Assembly (NCBI RefSeq): GCF_012027495.1
Contig: NZ_SNUK01000002.1
Span: 372,001-436,000 of the forward strand
Reading direction: 5' to 3'
Source: Thermococcus sp. JdF3
GTDB lineage: Archaea > Methanobacteriota_B > Thermococci > Thermococcales > Thermococcaceae
Length of the DNA: 64,000 nucleotides
Position numbers and translations under genes: made by a program. Shown in pieces: positions 11,723-59,670 of the stretch. The notes under the pieces are model-generated. The model had not been told where the DNA came from. It saw nothing but the letters and a program-made list of their open reading frames with translations, and searched no databases. Every line of letters begins with the position of its first letter. Position 1 is the stretch's first letter.

Positions 11723-12460
11723 TCATATTTTGGCAATCTTTGCCCACTTTTCCCTTGTCCTCTTCCAGCAGCCCGGCGGCATGAGCTCGCCCTCGGGGCA
11801 GTAGCCGAGCTGGACGCACCTGGGCCCGAGCTTCGCCCACTTTATCACGGGCCTGAGGTCATCGTTCTTTGCAATCTCCTCCAGCATCTTCCAGGCGACT
11901 TCCCTTATCTCCCACTGGGCCCTTTCGCACGCCCTCAGGCCGAAGAAGTGCTTGAGCTCGCGGAGGTTCATGGTCATCACCATCTTTGTCCTAACCGCCT
12001 GGGGGAGGATAAAGCGCGCGTCCTCCTGATGGACACCTGACTTATAGCTCTCCTCGTAGAGCTCTATGGTCCTCTTCATAAGCTCCCGCCACTTCTCATA
12101 AAGTTCCGGCCTTTTTTTCACGCTCTCTGGAATTACGAAGGTCTCTTCGACGTCGTTGGGGTTCAATTTTATATAGCGCTGTGACTGTTGGGTATAACTT
12201 GCAAGTCTATGTCTCACAAGTTGGTGTGAACACGTCCGAGAACATCCCTCGATCGCGAAGGTGAGAACCGCGTGCTCCAGTATTGACTCGTGACCATACC
12301 CCAAAACCCGGGGCAGATGCATCCTAACGTCCCCTTCGCCCATGCGCTCGAACGCTTCCGTCTCCCATTCACCCCAGTAGCTTATGAGCGCCGCCCAAGT
12401 GACGGTTTCGAGAGGTTTTTTCGTATAATTGACAAGGGTAACCCTGATCCCATCCCCCAT
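11723..12460 (-). CDS. thyX: Flavin-dependent thymidylate synthase
   Basis: This 245-residue protein makes dTMP from dUMP using methylene-tetrahydrofolate (or the archaeal pterin equivalent) and FAD. The ThyX signature RHRLASYTQQSQRY is present near residue 80, together with GHESILEHAVLTF and the C-terminal HFFGLRACERAQWEIR. The ATG chosen gives MGDGIRVTLVNY with GGTGG seven bases upstream; in-frame codons further upstream do not encode a conserved N-terminus. No thyA is seen in this window. Confidence 0.93.
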   Translation of the reverse strand: MGDGIRVTLVNYTKKPLETVTWAALISYWGEWETEAFERMGEGDVRMHLPRVLGYGHESILEHAVLTFAIEGCSRTCSHQLVRHRLASYTQQSQRYIKLNPNDVEETFVIPESVKKRPELYEKWRELMKRTIELYEESYKSGVHQEDARFILPQAVRTKMVMTMNLRELKHFFGLRACERAQWEIREVAWKMLEEIAKNDDLRPVIKWAKLGPRCVQLGYCPEGELMPPGCWKRTREKWAKIAKI

Positions 12461-12551
12461 GCATGCCACCGGAGATAGAAGAGTCCGGGGTTTATTAGGT
12501 TTACCTTGGACTAAAAAATTGAATGGTGAGAATAGAGCTCCCAAAAGGAGT

Positions 12552-13208
12552 CTACTCTTGCTGGGTTTCCTCAGTGACGTCCTCAGTGGCCTCGGCAGGT
12601 TCCTCCTCAGAAGTCACGGGCTCCTCTGAGACTTCGGCATTCCCGGTGCCCTCAGCTTTTTCCGGTACAGACCCCGGTGTCGGTGCCTCGCTCACTGCGC
12701 CGGGAAGCTCCTCCGGGAGGGCGAAAAACGCCATTATCTCCATGATGGCACCAACCATGATGAAGAAGTAGCCCACCATGATAAGCGTGAGTATAGCACC
12801 CATAAGGTAGAACAGCGCTGCCGTGTGGAAAGTCCCCACGCCTGTTTCCCGAGCTATGGCGTCGTAGCTCTTCTTCATGAACCAGACGCCGATTATCATT
12901 ATGACCACTGCAATAAGGCTCCACGTTCCGAAGGCGGATGTGAGTTCGGCCACCTTCTCGGGGTCGTGGATGACGTCTGCCATCTTGTCCCACATGTTGT
13001 AGAAAGCCCAGGAAAGGATCAGGCTGGCGGTTATGTTGAGCAGGGCTGCCCATATGTAGTCCTTAAAGATGTTTTCCTTCTTAGTTGCCTCCGCGATGTT
13101 CTTAACCGCGAAGAGCTTCAGAACAAAACCCACCAGGTAGGTCACGTAAAAGAGACTGAATATGGCGCCAATGCCACCCCATGTTCGGGCGTTTTTCAGA
13201 TTTTCCAT
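12552..13208 (-). CDS. DUF996 membrane protein with acidic tail
   Basis: The protein has 218 residues with four membrane helices (about 12-34, 52-70, 92-110, 130-160). The conserved pattern KNARTWGGIG, FAVKNIAEATKKENIF and GVWFMKKSYDAIA is shared with its neighbour at 13325-13840. The last 55 residues are a disordered acidic tail rich in Glu, Pro, Thr and Ser (PVTSEEEPAEATEDVTEE), absent from the neighbour. GGTGATACC precedes the ATG. Family function is unknown. Confidence 0.75.
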   Translation of the reverse strand: MENLKNARTWGGIGAIFSLFYVTYLVGFVLKLFAVKNIAEATKKENIFKDYIWAALLNITASLILSWAFYNMWDKMADVIHDPEKVAELTSAFGTWSLIAVVIMIIGVWFMKKSYDAIARETGVGTFHTAALFYLMGAILTLIMVGYFFIMVGAIMEIMAFFALPEELPGAVSEAPTPGSVPEKAEGTGNAEVSEEPVTSEEEPAEATEDVTEETQQE

Positions 13209-13324
13209 GGTATCACCAGATACATGTACGAGGTTCATGCTATAAAAGAGTTCTCTCCGAAACCAATAGAAAGGATGTCAAAATGGTACATCGAAAAATC
13301 AAAAAAGAAAATATCGTCAAAAAA

Positions 13325-13840
13325 CTAAACCGGTGCGGGTTCTTCGACGGGCTTGGATATCTCGTCGGGCAACGAGAAGAACGCGATTATCTCAAGGATT
13401 GCCGCTATGACAATAAGCAGTCCGCCGATCAGAACTATCATCAGGATTGCACCGATAATGTACAGCAGTGCGACCGTGTGGAACATTCCCACCCCGGTTT
13501 CCTCGGATATCATGTCGTAGCTCTGCTTCATGAACCATACACCGACTATCATGAGAATCACTGCGATAATGCCGCCTGCACCCATCATACCCAGGCCGAA
13601 CTCTGGCGATTCGGAGGCACCCAGTATCGCGCCCCACATGGTTCCCACAAGTATCAGGCTGGCCACTATGTTCAGTATGGCGGCCCAGAGGTACTTGCTG
13701 AATATCTCTCCGCGGTTTGTAGCCTCGGCGATGTTCTTAACTGCCAAGAGCTTCAGGATGAAGCCTATGAAGCCGAGGCCCACAACGGTCAGGATGGCTC
13801 CGATGCCACCCATCATTTTGGCATTTTTCAAATCACCCAC
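13325..13840 (-). CDS. DUF996 membrane protein
   Basis: A 171-residue protein with four membrane helices, paralogous to the neighbouring protein (KNAKMMGGIG, LAVKNIAEATNRGEIF, GVWFMKQSYDMIS). The GTG start is five bases after GAGGTGAT; the TTG two codons earlier lies inside that site. The two DUF996 genes are tandem but about 115 bases apart and may have separate promoters. A TATA (CTTTTATAGTC) is found near 13900. Function is unknown. Confidence 0.75.
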   Translation of the reverse strand: MGDLKNAKMMGGIGAILTVVGLGFIGFILKLLAVKNIAEATNRGEIFSKYLWAAILNIVASLILVGTMWGAILGASESPEFGLGMMGAGGIIAVILMIVGVWFMKQSYDMISEETGVGMFHTVALLYIIGAILMIVLIGGLLIVIAAILEIIAFFSLPDEISKPVEEPAPV

Positions 13841-14074
13841 AGGCAATCACCTCAAAAACAAATGTCTTCATAATCATTTAAAAGGCTTTCTACCGGCGAC
13901 TATAAAAGTATGACACATCCTTATCGGAAGTACTGCAAGTGGCAAAGAATGCGGCGGTGTTCATTACATTTGGAAAGCCAGCGTGCATTGATGCTCAAAA
14001 GATTTCAGTCCTATCCCACTTTCTCCGACGAAAGGGTTATTAAAACCGGGCTCCAGCTTTAGACGGTGATGCAC

Positions 14075-15022
14075 ATGGTGGTTAGCCTTGCAGGAAGGGA
14101 TGTTCTCTGCCTTCAGGACTTTACGAGGGAGGAGATTGAGACTATTCTCAAGACGGCCGAGATGATGAAGATATGGAACAAAATCGGCAAGCCGCACCGC
14201 GTTCTTGAGGGCAAGACCCTGGCCATGATCTTCCAGAAGCCCTCAACCAGAACAAGGATCTCCTTTGAGGTTGGAATCTACCAGCTCGGCGGATACGGCC
14301 TCTACCTCAACGCCAACGACCTCCAGCTCAGGCGCGGCGAGACCATCGCCGACACCGCCCGCGTCCTCAGCAGGTACGTCGACGGAATGATGGCGAGGGT
14401 TTACGCCCACAAGGACGTCGAGGACCTCGCCAAGTACGCCAGCGTCCCGGTCATCAACGGTCTGAGCGACTTCAGCCACCCGTGCCAGGCCCTCGCTGAC
14501 TACCAGACCATCCTTGAGAAGAAGGGCCGTATCGCTGGCCTCAAGATAGTCTACGTTGGAGATGGAAACAACGTCGCCCACTCCCTCATGATAGCCGGAA
14601 CCAAGCTCGGTGCCAACGTTGTTGTTGCAACTCCCGAAGGCTTCGAGCCGGACGAGAAGGTCATCAAGTGGGCCGAGCAGAACGCGGCCGAGAGCGGCGG
14701 CAGCTTCGAGCTCCTCCACGACCCGGTTCAGGCGGTTAAGGACGCGGACGTCATCTACACCGACGTCTGGGCGAGCATGGGCCAGGAGGCCGAGGCCGAG
14801 GAGAGGAGAAAGATATTCCAGCCGTTCCAGGTGAACAAGGACCTCGTCAAGCACGCGAAGCCTGACTACATCTTCATGCACTGCCTCCCGGCCCACCGCG
14901 GCGAGGAAGTCACCGACGACGTCGTTGACTCACCGAACAGCGTCGTCTTCGACGAGGCCGAGAACCGCTTGCACGCCCAGAAGGCCGTCATGGCCCTCGT
15001 CATGGGTGGAATTAAGGTCTGA
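14075..15022 (+). CDS. argF: Ornithine carbamoyltransferase
   Basis: This 315-residue enzyme makes citrulline from ornithine and carbamoyl phosphate. The carbamoyl-phosphate motif is STRTR (near 57), HPCQ is near 137 and the ornithine-site motif HCLPAHRGEE is near 270. It is very similar to the P. furiosus enzyme, including the N-terminus MVVSLAGRD. The ATG four bases after GGTGAT was chosen over upstream GTG and ATG codons that overlap the site. TTATTAAAAC near 14037 is a good TATA box. Confidence 0.96.
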   Translation: MVVSLAGRDVLCLQDFTREEIETILKTAEMMKIWNKIGKPHRVLEGKTLAMIFQKPSTRTRISFEVGIYQLGGYGLYLNANDLQLRRGETIADTARVLSRYVDGMMARVYAHKDVEDLAKYASVPVINGLSDFSHPCQALADYQTILEKKGRIAGLKIVYVGDGNNVAHSLMIAGTKLGANVVVATPEGFEPDEKVIKWAEQNAAESGGSFELLHDPVQAVKDADVIYTDVWASMGQEAEAEERRKIFQPFQVNKDLVKHAKPDYIFMHCLPAHRGEEVTDDVVDSPNSVVFDEAENRLHAQKAVMALVMGGIKV

Positions 15023-15150
15023 GCTCTCTTTTCCTCCATTTTGAAATTTCAGCGCGGTTCTGCATTTCGGACTGTGGTTATTATAATCGTGCTCCGTATT
15101 CCGGCCCATGGTTAATATAGGATTTGAGCGTAAGTTCATCGGGGTCACCC

Positions 15151-15373
15151 ATGGCCGGAACATACACGGTAGATAATCTCGGAAAGAGACGCATCGTGGT
15201 AAAGAAAGGCATGCTCCGTAAAGAAGCCATTGAAAGAGATTTTCACAATCTACGAAGAAGTTCCCGAAAGCGCCACACTGCATGGGGAAGAAATATATAA
15301 AGAACACCCTGCAGGTCGCCTCAAAAGCGGTGTGGGGATATACGATGCTACACGTAACACACACCAGAAATGA
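15151..15373 (+). pseudogene. Decayed gene 1 of a broken three-gene operon
   Basis: A TATA-like GTTAATATAGG (about 15111) precedes an ATG at 15151. The frame reads about 30 residues (MAGTYTVDNLGKRRIVVKKG...) and then becomes unlikely sequence ending at 15300. From about 15239 another frame continues sensibly (IFTIYEEVPESATLHGEEIY, then KEHPAGRLKSGVGIYDATRN) to a TGA at 15371-15373. That stop overlaps the next ATG as ATGA, so the shifted frame was the original one. One indel near 15238 explains it. The product would have been about 73 residues. I do not recognise it. Confidence 0.5.
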
Positions 15374-15639
15374 CGCATGGGCATGAACGGGAAAACCTCA
15401 AAAACAAACCGATCATAGCGGGGAACCTGCAGGATGCAATGAAGTGGAACATATTCATCCAGTTGCTAACGCACATCCCCGCACTCTCTGACCCTGAAGA
15501 AAGATCGAGTAGGGAGCTGGGGAAAACAATGCGCGGCTTCTGGAGAACTCGTTGAAAAAATCGTATTCGCAAAGCACAAATAGTACGCGACAACGCCTTT
15601 GAAAGAATACAATATTGGTGGAGTCCTGATAAGCTTTGA
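15370..15639 (+). pseudogene. Decayed gene 2 of a broken three-gene operon
   Basis: It starts at the ATG overlapping gene 1. The frame reads about 52 plausible residues (NKPIIAGNLQDAMKWNIFIQ, HIPALSDPEERSSRELGK) and stops early at 15555. A second frame then gives GELVEKIVFAKHK, and a third gives QIVRDNAFERIQYWWSPDKL ending at TGA 15637-15639. That stop overlaps the following ATG as TGATG. At least two indels are needed. The intact protein would be roughly 88 residues. I cannot place it in a family. Confidence 0.45.
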
Positions 15640-15917
15640 TGAGCTAAAAAAGAATCAAGAAACCGGCAAGGGAATTCGTCCGGGTGCGGGCAGACCTGTC
15701 CAGGGAGGCGACGAAGCTCCTCGGGCTCGTGAAGGGCCTCCGGCTCGCCGGGGCCGGTGGTGAGTCCCTCAGAAACACCGAGGAGAGCCTCTGGAGGGAG
15801 ATAAAGCGCCTTGAGAAGGAAAGAGAGCTGGAACTCATAGGCCTCTACGCCGTTGTTATTGCCCACCTGCGCGAGAACGACCTTGAGGGCGCCGAAAGGT
15901 TCCTCGAAGGGTTTTGA
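15639..15917 (+). pseudogene. Gene 3 of a broken operon: nonsense codon near the start
   Basis: The ATG at 15639 overlaps the stop of gene 2 and is followed by AGC and then an in-frame TAA. After the TAA the frame stays open to 15917 and reads well: KRIKKPAREFVRVRADLSRE, then a Leu-rich helical region and WREIKRLEKERELELIGLYA. The product is a helical protein of about 92 residues. The GTG at 15684 could still start a 77-residue product, but the only possible ribosome site is about 12 bases away. Function is unknown. Confidence 0.5.
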
Positions 15918-15942
15918 TTCTTACCCCTTTTGTCCGATTTTA

Positions 15943-16054
15943 TGAAACTCAACTTTCACAGATGGCGTGATTTGTGAAAGTATATTTTCATAAAACTGGC
16001 CCTTTGTGAAAGTGGGCTTTCACAAATCTTATAAACTATGAAAGCGGACTTTCA
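15943..16054. promoter_or_regulatory. Four 16-bp palindromes at exact 32-bp spacing before an AAA ATPase
   Basis: The element TGAAA-N6-TTTCA occurs at 15943-15958, 15975-15990, 16007-16022 and 16039-16054. Each starts exactly 32 bases after the previous one, about three helical turns. The third is the best palindrome (TTTGTGAAAGTGGGCTTTCACAAA). The TATA box TTATAAA (16029-16035) lies between the third and fourth. The predicted transcription start is at or near the ATG at 16058, so the fourth element covers the space between TATA and start. Cooperative repression is the likely role. Confidence 0.75.
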
Positions 16055-16057
16055 CAC

Positions 16058-17374
16058 ATGGCGATAAAGATAGTCAGGCTCGTGAGGCACAACCCCTGGT
16101 GGAAGGGCGAAGGCTGGGAGAAAGAGGACAGGGACCTTTCGAGGGCTGGGGAGATAATTCCGAGGAAGCGCGTTGAGGTGAAGGAGGGTTCCGTAACACT
16201 TCTCAGGGGAATCCGACGGGCGGGCAAGAGCTTCTACATCAAGACGCTGATAAAGGCTCTCATCGAGAACGGCACGGACCCGAGAAGGATAGCCTACATT
16301 CCCTGCGACAGGTTCACGGGGGGAGAGGTAAGGGCCTTAATAGACGAGCTTAGATTAAGGCATGGTGAGCTCTACGTCTTCCTCGACGAGATAACCTACC
16401 TGAGGGGCTGGAGGCTCCTCCTCAAGGAACTCGGCGAGGAGGGCGTAACCACCGTTGCCACTGGCTCAAACCCGGTGGAGCTGAAGCGCGAGAGCGAGCT
16501 CCTTCCTGGGAGGGGGATAGAGGGCAACGAGTACTACTTCAACCCCCTGAGCTTCCGCGAGTTCGCGCGCTTCATGAGGCCCGAACTGCCCGATGTGTCC
16601 TTCACCTACAGGGAGCCCGATGCCGATGAGCTCTTACCCTGGTATGAAGAGCTTGAAGGCCTCTTCTACGCCTACCTCCAGACGGGTGGCTTTCCGGAGG
16701 CCGTTCTGGAGTTCAGGCGCGATGGGAAGGTGAAGCCAGAGCGGTACGAAGAGCTGATCCGCCTCGTCCTCGGAGAAATCGCAAAGTCCGGGAAGAGCGA
16801 GGAGACGGCAAGGGAGCTCCTTGAGGCCATCTTCAGGCTGAGGGGCAACAGGGTTGACTACGTGAGCCTGGCCCGGGAAATCGGGGTCTCCCACCCGACG
16901 GTGCGGGAGTACCTCTCAACGCTGGAGAGCGCGAGGGTGTTATACACGCTGGAGGCATGGGACATAACCAGAAAACGCCACGCCCACAGGAAGGAGAAGA
17001 AAATAGTCTTCCAGAGCCCACTCATAGCGACGGCCCTCGCCGTCTACCTCGGGGAGGAGCCGGTGGAGTTCGTCGAGGGCAACATTGAGTGGCTCGTGGA
17101 GCACACCGTCGCGTCTCACGTTATCTGGCACCTTGAAGAGCCGGTTCTCAGGGAGAAACACGCCTTTGCAGGCTTCTACTACAACGGCTCGAAGGAGTGC
17201 GACATTGTCATAAGGGATGGGGGCTTCTTCGGCATCGAGGTCAAGTACGGCCGGGTGAAGCGAAAGGGCTACCCATTCCCGGTGCTCTACCTTTCAAAGG
17301 ACGAGCTCGGCCCGGACGTCGTCCCAGCATCGCTCTACCTCTACGGCCTGGAGAAGAGCGATCGGTCAATATGA
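16058..17374 (+). CDS. AAA ATPase of the AAA_14/DUF4143 type with HTH and nuclease-like tail
   Basis: The protein has 438 residues. Walker A is GIRRAGKSF near 51 and Walker B is LYVFLDEIT near 107, followed by the sensor-like VATGSNPVELKRE. A winged helix-turn-helix (VDYVSLAREIGVSHPTVREY) is near 265. The C-terminal domain ends in CDIVIRDGGFFGIEVKYG, a pattern like the PD-(D/E)xK nuclease fold. Such ATPases are numerous in Thermococcales and of unknown role. TATA placement suggests a leaderless mRNA, as there is no ribosome site before the ATG. The HTH makes autoregulation through the upstream palindromes plausible but unproven. Confidence 0.8.
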   Translation: MAIKIVRLVRHNPWWKGEGWEKEDRDLSRAGEIIPRKRVEVKEGSVTLLRGIRRAGKSFYIKTLIKALIENGTDPRRIAYIPCDRFTGGEVRALIDELRLRHGELYVFLDEITYLRGWRLLLKELGEEGVTTVATGSNPVELKRESELLPGRGIEGNEYYFNPLSFREFARFMRPELPDVSFTYREPDADELLPWYEELEGLFYAYLQTGGFPEAVLEFRRDGKVKPERYEELIRLVLGEIAKSGKSEETARELLEAIFRLRGNRVDYVSLAREIGVSHPTVREYLSTLESARVLYTLEAWDITRKRHAHRKEKKIVFQSPLIATALAVYLGEEPVEFVEGNIEWLVEHTVASHVIWHLEEPVLREKHAFAGFYYNGSKECDIVIRDGGFFGIEVKYGRVKRKGYPFPVLYLSKDELGPDVVPASLYLYGLEKSDRSI

Positions 17375-17402
17375 TTTTAAACCCCTCCTCCAACTCCTCA
17401 CC

Positions 17403-18332
17403 ATGCTCGAAAAGCTCTTTAGTATCGGCTACTCAAAGACCTTCGCGGAGCGCTATTACGAGCTCTGGGGCGAGAGGGCGCTGGCGATAGCCGAGGCCAT
17501 GGAGAAGCCCCTTCCGAGGTGCTTCCGCGTGAACACACTCCGCATCGAGGTTCCAGGGCTTACCAAGCTCCTCAACAGGAAGGGATTCCAGTTTAGGCGC
17601 GTTCCCTGGGCGAGGGAAGGTTTCTGCCTGACGAGGGAGCCGTTCTCGATAACCTCCACCCCGGAATATCTCAGCGGCCTCCTCTACATTCAGGAGGCCA
17701 GCTCGATGTATCCTCCGGTGGCTCTGGAACCGAAGCCCGGTGAAACCGTCGCGGACATGGCCGCCGCCCCCGGTGGGAAGACGAGCCACATAGCACAGCT
17801 GATGGAGAACGAGGGCATCATTTACGCCTTCGATGTCGGCGAGGAGAGGCTCAAAGAGACCCGCCTGAACCTCTCGCGCCTCGGCGTCACCAATACCGTG
17901 CTCTTCCACAGGTCCTCGCTCCACATAGACGAGCTCGGGGTGGAGTTCGACAGAATCCTACTCGATGCCCCCTGCACCGGCTCGGGGACGATACACAAGA
18001 ACCCCGAAAGGAAGGCCAACAGAACGATGGACGATGTCAAGTTCTGCCAGGGACTGCAGATGAAGCTCATCGAGAAGGCCCTCGGAGTCCTGAAGCCGGG
18101 AGGAATCCTCGTCTACTCAACCTGCTCCCTCGAGCCGGAGGAGAACGAGTTCGTGGTTCAATGGGTTCTCGACAGCTTCGACGTTGAGCTCCTGCCCCTC
18201 CGCCACGGCGAGCCGGCTCTAACCGCTCCTTTTGGTGTTGAGCTGAGTGATGAGATGAGAAAGGCGAGGCGCTTTTATCCGGACAGACACGGGACGAGCG
18301 GCTTCTTCGTGGCGAAGATTAAGAAGCTTTGA
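17403..18332 (+). CDS. RNA m5C methyltransferase, NOL1/NOP2/Sun family
   Basis: This 309-residue SAM-dependent enzyme has the family motifs: the SAM site DMAAAPGGKTSHIAQ near 117, DAPCTGSGT with one catalytic Cys near 189, and YSTCSLEPEENE with the second near 238. The C-terminal RHGTSGFFVAKI is typical. It probably methylates cytosine in tRNA. GATTTTAAACCCC near 17370 is the TATA box and there is no ribosome site, so the transcript is probably leaderless. Confidence 0.88.
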   Translation: MLEKLFSIGYSKTFAERYYELWGERALAIAEAMEKPLPRCFRVNTLRIEVPGLTKLLNRKGFQFRRVPWAREGFCLTREPFSITSTPEYLSGLLYIQEASSMYPPVALEPKPGETVADMAAAPGGKTSHIAQLMENEGIIYAFDVGEERLKETRLNLSRLGVTNTVLFHRSSLHIDELGVEFDRILLDAPCTGSGTIHKNPERKANRTMDDVKFCQGLQMKLIEKALGVLKPGGILVYSTCSLEPEENEFVVQWVLDSFDVELLPLRHGEPALTAPFGVELSDEMRKARRFYPDRHGTSGFFVAKIKKL

Positions 18333-18344
18333 CTGGCCTCCGGA

Positions 18345-19319
18345 CTATCCCTTCGATTCCGCCGCAAGCTTCTCTTCGAGTTCCTTAAGTCTCTCCAGAA
18401 CGTCCCCGCTGAGGTTTCTCTCAAGCTCTTCGCGGGCGGCCTTGGCCAGCTCGAACTTCGAGTCGTACTTCCCGAGGGACGTCCAGTGAATCTTCTTGCC
18501 CTCTACGAAAACGTCTATGTCGCAGAGGCGCTTGTAGCCGACGTACTCGATGCCCTTCAGCAGGAACTTGACGCGCACCGGGTCCTCCCACGTCAGGAGC
18601 TTGAGCTTGTAGACGGGAACGCGCATGAAGGGCCGCGGGTAGTCCCAGTCCCAGCCCTCGCCGACGACGAAGCCGATGTCAAGGTCCTCGATCACCATCA
18701 TGAGACGCTCTATGTTCTCGTCGTAGCGCTTGTCGGTGTCGTAGATTTTAATCGTGATCTCGTTCCACTCGGGCATCAGCCTGAGCAGGAGGACTGGAAG
18801 GTCAACGCTCAGTTCCCTGTAAACCTCCAGAAAGTCCCTGCGGACGAGGACGGCACCATCGATGTCCTCCGGCCCGATTGGGGAGTTGAGCTTCTTCCTG
18901 GTCACGCCGATTATCGTGTCCCCGGCCTCGCCTTCGTCAAGGGCAGTTCGTATATCCATTATCTCCCCGCCGTACTTTTCGGAGAGGAGCTTCAGGCCCT
19001 CCTCCACCTTGCTGGGTACCCTTATGAAGATCAGCGTGCTCTCCACGTGAACCTTTTCTATCGGGAGCTTCTCGTTAAGGATAAGGCTCAGAACAACCGG
19101 TGCGTGGGAACTCACGAGAAAGGCCGTTTCGGGCGGTATCGTCTCCTTCTTCCATTCATCCGTGACGAAGACTATTGTCTCGAACTCGCTGCTCTTCTTA
19201 ATCGCCTCGTCCGTTGGTATCTCACCGACCCCAAAGGCCTCCGAGAGGGCCCTCTTCACGGCCGGGATGTCCCCGGTTCTCAGAAAGATTATGGACGGCC
19301 CAAAGCGGAGAACCTTCAT
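18345..19319 (-). CDS. Thermococcales-type hypothetical protein
   Basis: A 324-residue soluble alpha/beta protein with no signal peptide and no motif I recognise. Blocks such as ETIVFVTDEWKKETIPPETA, LVRRDFLEVYREL and VVGEGWDWDYPRPFMRVPVY look conserved, and the C-terminus is a charged helix (ERLKELEEKLAAESKG). The ATG overlaps the stop of the phosphoesterase gene (TGATG) and has GGAGGGG six bases upstream; the GTG five codons earlier was rejected. It may work with the phosphoesterase. Confidence 0.65.
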   Translation of the reverse strand: MKVLRFGPSIIFLRTGDIPAVKRALSEAFGVGEIPTDEAIKKSSEFETIVFVTDEWKKETIPPETAFLVSSHAPVVLSLILNEKLPIEKVHVESTLIFIRVPSKVEEGLKLLSEKYGGEIMDIRTALDEGEAGDTIIGVTRKKLNSPIGPEDIDGAVLVRRDFLEVYRELSVDLPVLLLRLMPEWNEITIKIYDTDKRYDENIERLMMVIEDLDIGFVVGEGWDWDYPRPFMRVPVYKLKLLTWEDPVRVKFLLKGIEYVGYKRLCDIDVFVEGKKIHWTSLGKYDSKFELAKAAREELERNLSGDVLERLKELEEKLAAESKG

Positions 19320-19897
19320 CACATGCCCCTCCACATCTTGTAGCCCCTATCGAAATCAGTTCCCCCCGGATACTTAACGCGGTAGGTCCTCCCGCTCGGA
19401 AGGAGAACGAAGTTGACACCAAGGACGCCGTTCAGCCCCCTATCGATCAGTTTGAAGTTGTGGCCGTAGAGCCTGAAGTCGGCGTCCAGACCGACTACAT
19501 CCTTCCAGGTGTGGCCGAGGGCGAACCTCATACCTCCTATCTCAACGATGGTTCCTGGCTCGACGACACTTCCCCCGAAGAACTCCTGGACTACCCCCGG
19601 CTCGTCCTCGTTGCCGGGAACCACGTAGAGTTCCATCCCCGGGTTCTTGAGTACGCGGGCCAGCTTTCTTACGGCCCCGATGTAGAGCGGCTTCATGTCG
19701 GGTCTTCGCTCAAGTTTTATATTGTCAGCGAGGTCGCCCGTGTGGATAACGTACTCGGGACGGATCCCCTCGATGAGCTCACCTATGAAGCGGTAAGCGC
19801 TCTCTGGGGTGTCGCTGACGTGCATGACCTTCGTTTCGTCGGTGGATGACAGCAGTTCCAGGACTTTTTTCCGGAAGAGGGGAAGTTTTATAGGCAT
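19319..19897 (-). CDS. Metallophosphoesterase, calcineurin-like
   Basis: This 192-residue protein has the five phosphoesterase blocks in order: HVSDTPES (Asp-x-His block altered), HTGDLADN, VVPGNEDEP, ALGHTW and LYGHNFK. The family hydrolyses phosphomono- or diesters with two metals. In the first block the usual D-x-H reads differently (HVSD), which may affect metal binding. It is divergent from the dehydrogenase gene, with a shared TATA (TTATATATACC) around 19919, and coupled to the gene downstream. Confidence 0.75.
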   Translation of the reverse strand: MPIKLPLFRKKVLELLSSTDETKVMHVSDTPESAYRFIGELIEGIRPEYVIHTGDLADNIKLERRPDMKPLYIGAVRKLARVLKNPGMELYVVPGNEDEPGVVQEFFGGSVVEPGTIVEIGGMRFALGHTWKDVVGLDADFRLYGHNFKLIDRGLNGVLGVNFVLLPSGRTYRVKYPGGTDFDRGYKMWRGM

Positions 19898-19955
19898 TAA
19901 TGAAAGTAGGAGCAGGGCTTATATATACCTTCTCCAAGTTACTGAGGGTGTTACC

Positions 19956-21681
<1,726 letters not shown>

Positions 21682-58321: not shown

Positions 58322-58755
58322 ACTTTTTCCTCCAGGAGTTTTTTCATGAGGGATAAGAACTCCTCCGCTATTTTTATCGCCTCCTCGACCTCCTCAGCGT
58401 CGGGTTCATAGACTATGTCGTACTGGTCCTCGTGCCTCAGCTCCCTCATTCTGTCCAGGAGTTCGACCCACGTCCCCTCCAGCTTCCCGCGTTTAACGTA
58501 GAATTCCTCAAGGTAACGGGCGATGCAGTAGTGGCTCTTCTCCCTCCAGCCGTCGCGGAAAAGAACCGCCCTGGCGGCGTGGAACATGGCCATATAAGAT
58601 GCCATGAGGGACGTCCGGTACGAGCCGTAGGTGAGGTTTCTCCTCGCCTCTTCGAGCCAGTCCCCGGCGCGTTTAATGCTCAACCAGCCTTTCTCTAGGG
58701 ACGGGGGAACCCTTCTCAACAGGTTCCTTTCGAGGCATCTCTCGAATCCGCTCAA
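58318..58755 (-). CDS. HEPN-domain protein, likely toxin of a MNT/HEPN pair
   Basis: The protein has up to 145 residues. The HEPN helices are visible: IKRAGDWLEEARRNLTYGSY, SLMASYMAMFHAARAVLF and the C-terminal RMRELRHEDQYD, where R-x5-H-E-D resembles the HEPN RNase motif. HEPN toxins cut RNA and are silenced by MNT partners. The start is uncertain: TTG at 58755 has GGGGGGAGAACC before it, and TTG at 58683 would overlap the MNT stop and match usual HEPN lengths. It overlaps the MNT gene. Confidence 0.75.
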   Translation of the reverse strand: MSGFERCLERNLLRRVPPSLEKGWLSIKRAGDWLEEARRNLTYGSYRTSLMASYMAMFHAARAVLFRDGWREKSHYCIARYLEEFYVKRGKLEGTWVELLDRMRELRHEDQYDIVYEPDAEEVEEAIKIAEEFLSLMKKLLEEKV

Positions 58756-59281
58756 GGTTCTCCCCCCATATTATCATCGAGCCGTAGGCGAGTGAGTAGT
58801 AGAAAACCGGGTCGTTGGTTCTGAGCTTTCTAACCCTCTCAGGCGTGAGAACGAGGAGATTGACCTCCCTGCCGGTGGACTTTTCTATCTCCCTCTTCAG
58901 GGAGGCGGATCTGGCTATGCTCGGCCTCTCGACGAAGACCCAGACGTCGAGGTCACTTTCTGGCGTATTTTCCCCGGTTGCAAAGCTTCCGTACACCCCG
59001 AGGGCAATGACCCACCCGCTCTTCAGGGGCTCCAGCTTTTTGAAGAGCCACATAAAGTTGATGAACCTCTTGAGCTCCCGGGTTCTCGGAACGCTGAGTA
59101 CAGTGAATCCCCTGCCGGATTTCTTGGCCATGCCGTACTTCACAAGAAGGTGCAGGGTTTTGGAGACGAGGCCCTTACTTAGACCAGTTGCCCTCGCGGT
59201 TTCTTCGACCCCCACCCGATGGCGCTCAAGCGCGTAGGCGAGGATCCTGATCCTCTCTTCGGTTGATACCAGTTCATGCAT
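58673..59281 (-). CDS. HTH-MNT nucleotidyltransferase, likely antitoxin and autoregulator
   Basis: The protein has 202 residues. An N-terminal winged helix-turn-helix (RHRVGVEETARATGLSKGLV near 20-60) is fused to a minimal nucleotidyltransferase with GSFATGENTPESDLDVWVFV near 100, the G-S-x10-D-x-D signature. MNT antitoxins modify HEPN toxins with AMP. The HTH suggests that the protein also binds DNA, probably the three palindromes directly upstream. The ATG has only a weak site. Confidence 0.8.
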   Translation of the reverse strand: MHELVSTEERIRILAYALERHRVGVEETARATGLSKGLVSKTLHLLVKYGMAKKSGRGFTVLSVPRTRELKRFINFMWLFKKLEPLKSGWVIALGVYGSFATGENTPESDLDVWVFVERPSIARSASLKREIEKSTGREVNLLVLTPERVRKLRTNDPVFYYSLAYGSMIIWGENLERIREMPRKEPVEKGSPVPRERLVEH

Positions 59282-59294
59282 GTTACCGGCTCTC

Positions 59295-59355
59295 GTTCAT
59301 GATTTATGAACTTTTCGTTCACGTTCCATGAACGGCTTGTTCACGATCCGTGAAC
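59295..59355. promoter_or_regulatory. Three 17-bp palindromes at exact 22-bp spacing
   Basis: GTTCATGATTTATGAAC (59295-59311), GTTCACGTTCCATGAAC (59317-59333) and GTTCACGATCCGTGAAC (59339-59355) fit GTTCA-N7-TGAAC and are separated by five bases, so the period is 22, about two helical turns. They lie 14-74 bases upstream of the HTH-MNT start. The copy nearest the gene contains the only TATA-like sequence (TTCATAAATC on the minus strand). The far copy contains the stop codon of the upstream gene. They look like autorepression operators. Confidence 0.8.
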
Positions 59356-59670
59356 TCTCTCAAGCTCCCGCTTTCTCTCCTCAACGGCCTTCCTCAGCTC
59401 CTCGTTCTCCTTTCTCAGCCTGTCGCGCTCGGCGGTCATGAGCTCCCTGTCCCTCAAAGCCTTCTCGTAGAACTCCCTGAGCTCTTCAATCTCCCCCTCC
59501 ATCTCTCGGAGCTTCTCCTCAAGCTTTCCCATCTTTCCGCGCAGAAACTCCTCGCGCTCCGCTTTGAGCGTTTCTTCAACCCTTGAAAGGTTCCCCTCGA
59601 TGATGGCTTTAACGTCCCTCCCCTTCAGGGCCTTGAATCTCTCCCTGGGCAGGGTTATCTCCAGCCTCAT
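59341..59670 (-). CDS. Coiled-coil protein, third gene of the VapBC module
   Basis: A 109-residue protein. It begins with a short strand and helices (MRLEITLPRERFKALKGRDV) and continues as a long coiled coil (about 40-105, EEKLREMEGEIEELREFYEK, RDRLRKENEELRKAVEERKR). It overlaps the PIN gene by four bases (ATGA). The stop lies inside the third operator palindrome. Layout and N-terminus resemble the coiled-coil protein after the HEPN gene. Function is unknown. Confidence 0.65.
   Translation of the reverse strand: MRLEITLPRERFKALKGRDVKAIIEGNLSRVEETLKAEREEFLRGKMGKLEEKLREMEGEIEELREFYEKALRDRELMTAERDRLRKENEELRKAVEERKRELERVHGS

Follow-up and report, generated by a model that had tools for sequence, protein, structure and literature searches.

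ParA/RepA-type ATPases, which act in plasmid partition, autorepress their own operon, as described for example in PMC8465637. The window analysed here, a 64-kb stretch of the genome of Thermococcus sp. JdF3, contains an AAA_14/DUF4143 ATPase gene that is preceded by a tandem array of short palindromes. ATPases of this family, which we take to be COG1373, are widespread, are predicted to be defence genes and are functionally uncharacterised. We know of no partition function for them and of no description of operators or autoregulation in the family, and a literature search, in which a single paper mentioned DUF4143, did not find an earlier description of such AAA_14/DUF4143 operators.

The array consists of four copies of TGAAA-N6-TTTCA that are exact in the sequence, at the positions and with the constant 32-bp step given in the original prediction (steps 32/32/32), and that together span -115 to -4 relative to the ATG at position 16058 (Table 1). 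The TATA box that had been placed between copies 3 and 4 is present, and the array extends over the core promoter of the ATPase gene, with copy 3 lying immediately 5' of the BRE/TATA and copy 4 between the TATA box and the ATG, where transcription is expected to begin. As the centre of TTATAAA lies about 26 bp upstream of the ATG, a leaderless start is plausible. The consensus of the array is longer than TGAAA-N6-TTTCA and reads TTTRTGAAAG-Y-NN-R-CTTTCAYAAA, a 24-bp palindrome (TTTRTGAAAGYNNRCTTTCAYAAA). Allowing up to one mismatch to TGAAA-N6-TTTCA, just the four array copies were found in the window, shuffles of which gave a mean of 1.5 one-mismatch matches. The 2.14-Mb genome holds six exact matches, namely the four array copies and two lone ones whose surroundings are unlike an array-type promoter, while a reversed control pattern gave 0 matches in the whole genome. 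A CRISPR-like array was also considered and is ruled out, since its repeats are just 16-bp palindromes whose cores vary, and the genes examined around 12000-20500 include no cas gene.

Table 1. Features of the operator array and the genes downstream of it (positions within the window; slots relative to the ATPase start codon).
Feature	Sequence	Coordinates	Strand	Slot	Basis and conservation
Operator copy 1	TGAAACTCAACTTTCA	15943..15958		-115	Exact match; many, not all, orthologs fill the slot
Operator copy 2	TGAAAGTATATTTTCA	15975..15990		-83	Perfect match in all 14 scored promoters of ATPase orthologs
Operator copy 3	TGAAAGTGGGCTTTCA	16007..16022		-51	At least 9/10 positions in 14/14 ATPase-bearing orthologous promoters
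Probable BRE position		16023..16028	+		Inferred from position
TATA box	TTATAAA	16029..16035	+		Sequence; conserved in Thermococcaceae orthologs
Operator copy 4	TGAAAGCGGACTTTCA	16039..16054		-19	At least 9/10 positions in 14/14 ATPase-bearing orthologous promoters
AAA_14/DUF4143 ATPase, 438 aa		16058..17374	+		Profile matches, predicted structure
RsmB/F-type methyltransferase gene		17403..18332	+		Domain match, array-only species

The encoded protein matches both Pfam domains, PF13173 (AAA_14; 73 bits, cut-off 27) and PF13635 (DUF4143; 60 bits, cut-off 28), in agreement with the original description of the target as an AAA_14/DUF4143 ATPase with a winged helix of its own. A canonical winged helix is predicted by AlphaFold2 at residues 248-299, with a recognition helix at 279-291 (HPTVREYLSTLES); the model was computed from a nine-sequence alignment, has a moderate mean pLDDT of 64 and is missing the C-terminal nuclease part, and its reading was restricted to the AAA core and the winged helix. 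Foldseek matches of the model comprise AAA/STAND ATPases and MarR/ArsR-type winged-helix repressors, and a sequence search returned no relatives of solved structure. Both Walker A (residues 50-58, GIRRAGKS) and Walker B (107-111, LDE) are intact, as are the nuclease-like PD-(D/E)XK residues D382, E394 and K396. Across 114 aligned proteins the Walker and nuclease-like residues are conserved in 109-114, the D-E-K residues in 109-113. The protein also matches the PADLOC candidate PDC-S01 (profile PDLC04787, E = 7e-33), a candidate system whose role in defence is itself only predicted. At the 3' side, the promoter of the methyltransferase gene (TTTTAAA) begins at the ATPase stop. At the 5' side, the segment from OTC to the array (15030-15930) resembles remnants and has no recognisable genes apart from a 77-aa ORF at 15684-15917, which is partly common to genome G009.

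Intact orthologs of the ATPase, with 75-96% identity, occur in 15 of 94 Thermococcaceae genomes, the Thermococcus genome itself included; more distant are four Thermoplasmata-type loci with 48-56% identity. After strand correction of the promoters, the palindromes of the Thermococcaceae orthologs fill slots -19, -51, -83 and often -115, as far as the contig reaches, and in the 14 orthologs scored the slots and the 32-bp step are conserved and the spacers divergent. The spacing, on whose conservation the original prediction had been staked, is therefore kept in orthologous promoters. Three of the Thermoplasmata-type loci, at about 50% identity, preserve the slots with other letters: L047 has TGATA-N6-TATCA, L049 carries GGCA-N6-TGCC at -114/-82/-50 and L046 has weaker, TGACA-like palindromes. 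The Aciduliprofundum locus L048, whose reading frame is broken by a frameshift in its assembly, has a perfect TGAAAC-N4-GTTTCA at -51. The conserved slots support the operator reading put forward originally, and we are highly confident that the TGAAA-N6-TTTCA array is an operator array of the ATPase promoter. Further copies of the gene are found in various states. In G009, which belongs to another genus, the ATPase (L012/L052/L153) is 96% identical to that of the window and is followed by a methyltransferase gene fragment starting at residue 68; this locus is a recent transfer. G054 carries an ATPase pseudogene (L127/L039) and G005 a C-terminal fragment (L026).

The array itself is more widely distributed than the gene. 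It is present in 37 of the 94 genomes, 22 of which have no intact ATPase ortholog. In these 22 the array thus outlives the gene, a point absent from the original prediction, and since an autoregulatory operator should be absent where its gene is absent, autoregulation alone does not predict them. In the 20 of the 22 genomes that were inspected, all arrays lie at the OTC-methyltransferase locus, in most of them as two or three copies directly 5' of the methyltransferase promoter, where the typical end is CACAAA followed by CGAAGAACCTTTTAAACC; a search for DUF4143 in one array-only genome (G028) gave one sub-threshold match. A comparison of 12 array-only species gave 100% identity for the arms of the final two copies, 53% for the far spacer and 64% for third codon positions of the methyltransferase gene; the figure for the arms is biased, as the motif had been used to find the species. 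In two array-only clades 25 changes fall outside the arms and none inside. A functionless repeat, arisen by chance or by degeneration, might be suspected from arms that are short and AT-rich; its probability is negligible, and we regard it as ruled out by the 0 matches of the reversed control, the register kept across species and the identity of arms versus spacers. Another possibility is that a regulator encoded elsewhere, such as a conserved Thermococcales transcription factor, binds the array, so that the ATPase gene would merely be a target and the RsmB/F methyltransferase gene the target in array-only species. The retention of arrays in 22 genomes without the ATPase, in most of those inspected directly 5' of the methyltransferase gene, and the absence of changes within the arms in the two clades speak for such a regulator. 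The orphan sites may reflect fast turnover of gene and site by recombination, or may still be used by something.

The analysis also covered 80 further AAA_14/DUF4143 loci of the family. A palindrome pair around the TATA box, scoring z>3 against dinucleotide shuffles, is found in 80 of 106 AAA_14/DUF4143 promoters. Of 56 control promoters taken from elsewhere in the window, 4 scored likewise, and a fifth control match was the array itself. The design is therefore common to most of the ATPase relatives sampled, which the original prediction had not noticed. The 80 promoters are related sequences and not 80 independent events; the real evidence lies in the recurrence of the arrangement with several unrelated motifs. 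Each ATPase subfamily has a different motif, which goes with the ATPase and is independent of the genome it occurs in. Paralogs carry a TTGGTAAT...ATTACCAA pair around the TATA box, TTTGATA...TATCAA, TGAGAAC...GTTCTCA, three copies of TTTGCA...TGCAAA, or further motifs such as TGTAAAGT... and TGCCGAAC..., among others. In the Thermococcus genome itself a clear pair is present at just 4 of 10 DUF4143 genes, which counts against the autoregulatory reading. The step is 32 bp in the subfamily of the window's ATPase and 33-35 bp, mostly 34, in the others, where the palindromes usually measure 18-19 bp, leaving an almost invariant 15-16 bp between the edges of neighbouring copies. The original idea that the step represents three helical turns does not extend to paralogs stepping by 34 bp; the near-constant gap is easier to reconcile with adjacent dimers in contact on the DNA than with exactly three turns. 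Inspection by eye of homologs on bacterial and archaeal plasmids revealed palindrome or repeat pairs upstream of distant relatives in Methanomethylovorans (L284, 32 bp) and Haladaptatus (L285, 33 bp), a possible upstream pair in Enterococcus and no obvious pair in Acinetobacter and Sulfurimonas. In IMG/VR, five contigs contain one TGAAA pair each, in an AT-rich or unrelated phage context; no TGAGAA pair was found in IMG/VR contigs, and no ATPase relatives were found in viral contigs.

The recognition helices of the ATPases can be matched to these motifs; together with the palindrome pairs of the related promoters, this lends indirect support to the original suggestion that the ATPase may bind the array. 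The SHPTVREY helix goes with TGAAA, the more distant L048 included, YSYKV(V/I)QDY with TGAGAA and (V/I)SPHTARDY with TTTGCA, while GSHVTVRDY goes with TTGATA and GAHTTVRDY with TTGATT (L036/L178, same subfamily). An HHNTV helix is shared by L046, L047 and L049, whose operator letters differ from TGAAA. This change and that to GAHTTVRDY, both within subfamilies, are the informative ones. A partial Mantel test controlling for the rest of the protein gave a significant but weak association between helix and motif (r = 0.16, p = 0.001); it is not specific to the helix, which is outscored by several other windows of the protein, and motif and ATPase subfamily are largely confounded. We also searched for targets beyond the locus. 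Among 51 array-less genomes the TGAAAG motif has four matches, including one at the relic locus, and ten array-only genomes contain the array plus TGAAAG matches at background level only. The regulon of a global regulator is thereby ruled out, the motif having no further targets in genomes with or without the array. The absence of a regulon points to a regulator that belongs to the locus, for which the ATPase is the simplest candidate, and argues against a transcription factor encoded elsewhere, as does the specificity of the motif to the ATPase subfamily that it follows, for which a separate regulator would be needed in each subfamily; we consider such a factor unlikely.

From these comparisons we infer that the array is probably bound by the ATPase itself and probably serves as its private, autoregulatory operator. 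In the mechanism we propose, the ATPase, probably as a dimer, would bind each 16-bp palindrome via its winged helix, and the 32-bp step would bring neighbouring dimers into contact and allow cooperative binding. Once occupied, copies 3 and 4 would cover the BRE, the TATA box and the start site and thus exclude TBP, TFB and RNA polymerase, so that expression of the ATPase gene would stay low for as long as the protein is not diluted, released or consumed. As each relative would use its own motif, paralogs within one cell would not cross-regulate each other.

The array might alternatively be the working site of the ATPase-nuclease, a docking or landing site with promoter control being secondary, where the ATPase gene is inserted or exchanged exactly at the junction of operator and flank. 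On the methyltransferase tree, ATPase-bearing and array-only states change at least nine times, with uniform junctions, and the pattern is repeated in a second subfamily. Here, some genomes show the order operator-ATPase-yjbQ, while in 11 genomes an orphan TGAGAA-N7-TTCTCA pair with an intact TATA box is joined straight to the yjbQ 3' flank (L262, L263, L265-L267, L269, L270, L272, L273, L276 and L283). Among these orphan operators, identity amounts to 98.5% in the arms, 100% in TATAAA, 56% in the cores and 46.5% in the flanks; a search for DUF4143 in G020, which has a TGAGAA orphan, gave no match. In G025 (L266) an operator pair, the ATPase gene and a second operator pair stand in tandem beside yjbQ. 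This tandem and the conserved D-E-K residues would likewise be in line with a working site. However, the occupied allele retains an intact operator, so that an enzyme of simple homing type would cleave its own allele, ordinary homologous allele replacement accounts equally well for the alternation, and the palindromes flank the TATA box at fixed distances, as operators do. We judge a working site to be very unlikely. A similarly low probability is assigned to the idea that it is the operator that lasts, while the ATPase gene is a visitor, with the operator doubling as the place where the gene is lost, regained or copied in. Genomes would then retain intact "docking" operators for lost ATPases, a pattern seen in at least two subfamilies (TGAAA at OTC-methyltransferase and TGAGAA at yjbQ).

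If the ATPase does bind a private operator, AAA_14/DUF4143 ATPases would repress themselves, and together with the correspondence of helix to motif this would predict the DNA target of each of them and open the family to tests in Thermococcus or in vitro. Paralogous repressors for hyperthermophiles, apparently orthogonal to one another, would also become available as natural sets. What preserves a binding site in species without the gene is the question raised by the orphan operators.

A similar element within the window is a 22-bp-period array of three GTTCA-N7-TGAAC palindromes at about 59292-59356. The gene downstream of it (58673-59281, minus strand) has a winged-helix-like N-terminus and nucleotidyltransferase-like sequence, and the array is likely another self-operator. 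Both arrays are palindromes upstream of a gene that itself appears to carry a winged helix, but the motif, the period and the gene family (nucleotidyltransferase) differ, and the common design suggested in the original prediction is reduced to an analogy. Like the operators of autoregulated MarR/ArsR-type repressors, the palindromes described here lie over the core promoter of what would be the regulator's own gene, and in the fold search the predicted winged helix of the ATPase resembles MepR, SlyA, CzrA and SmtB. These repressors differ from the case described here, in which an AAA ATPase carrying a nuclease-like domain is presumed to be the regulator, as many as four copies keep strict register and the motifs are specific to the individual paralogs. 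With the ParA/RepA-type ATPases it would share, by analogy and from general knowledge, the repression of its own promoter by an ATPase via repeat arrays, while it differs in the ATPase family, in being encoded by a chromosomal gene and in having no partner gene. As an autoregulatory tandem operator the array would be of a known kind; what is new is the protein family, the orthogonality across that family and the orphan operators.
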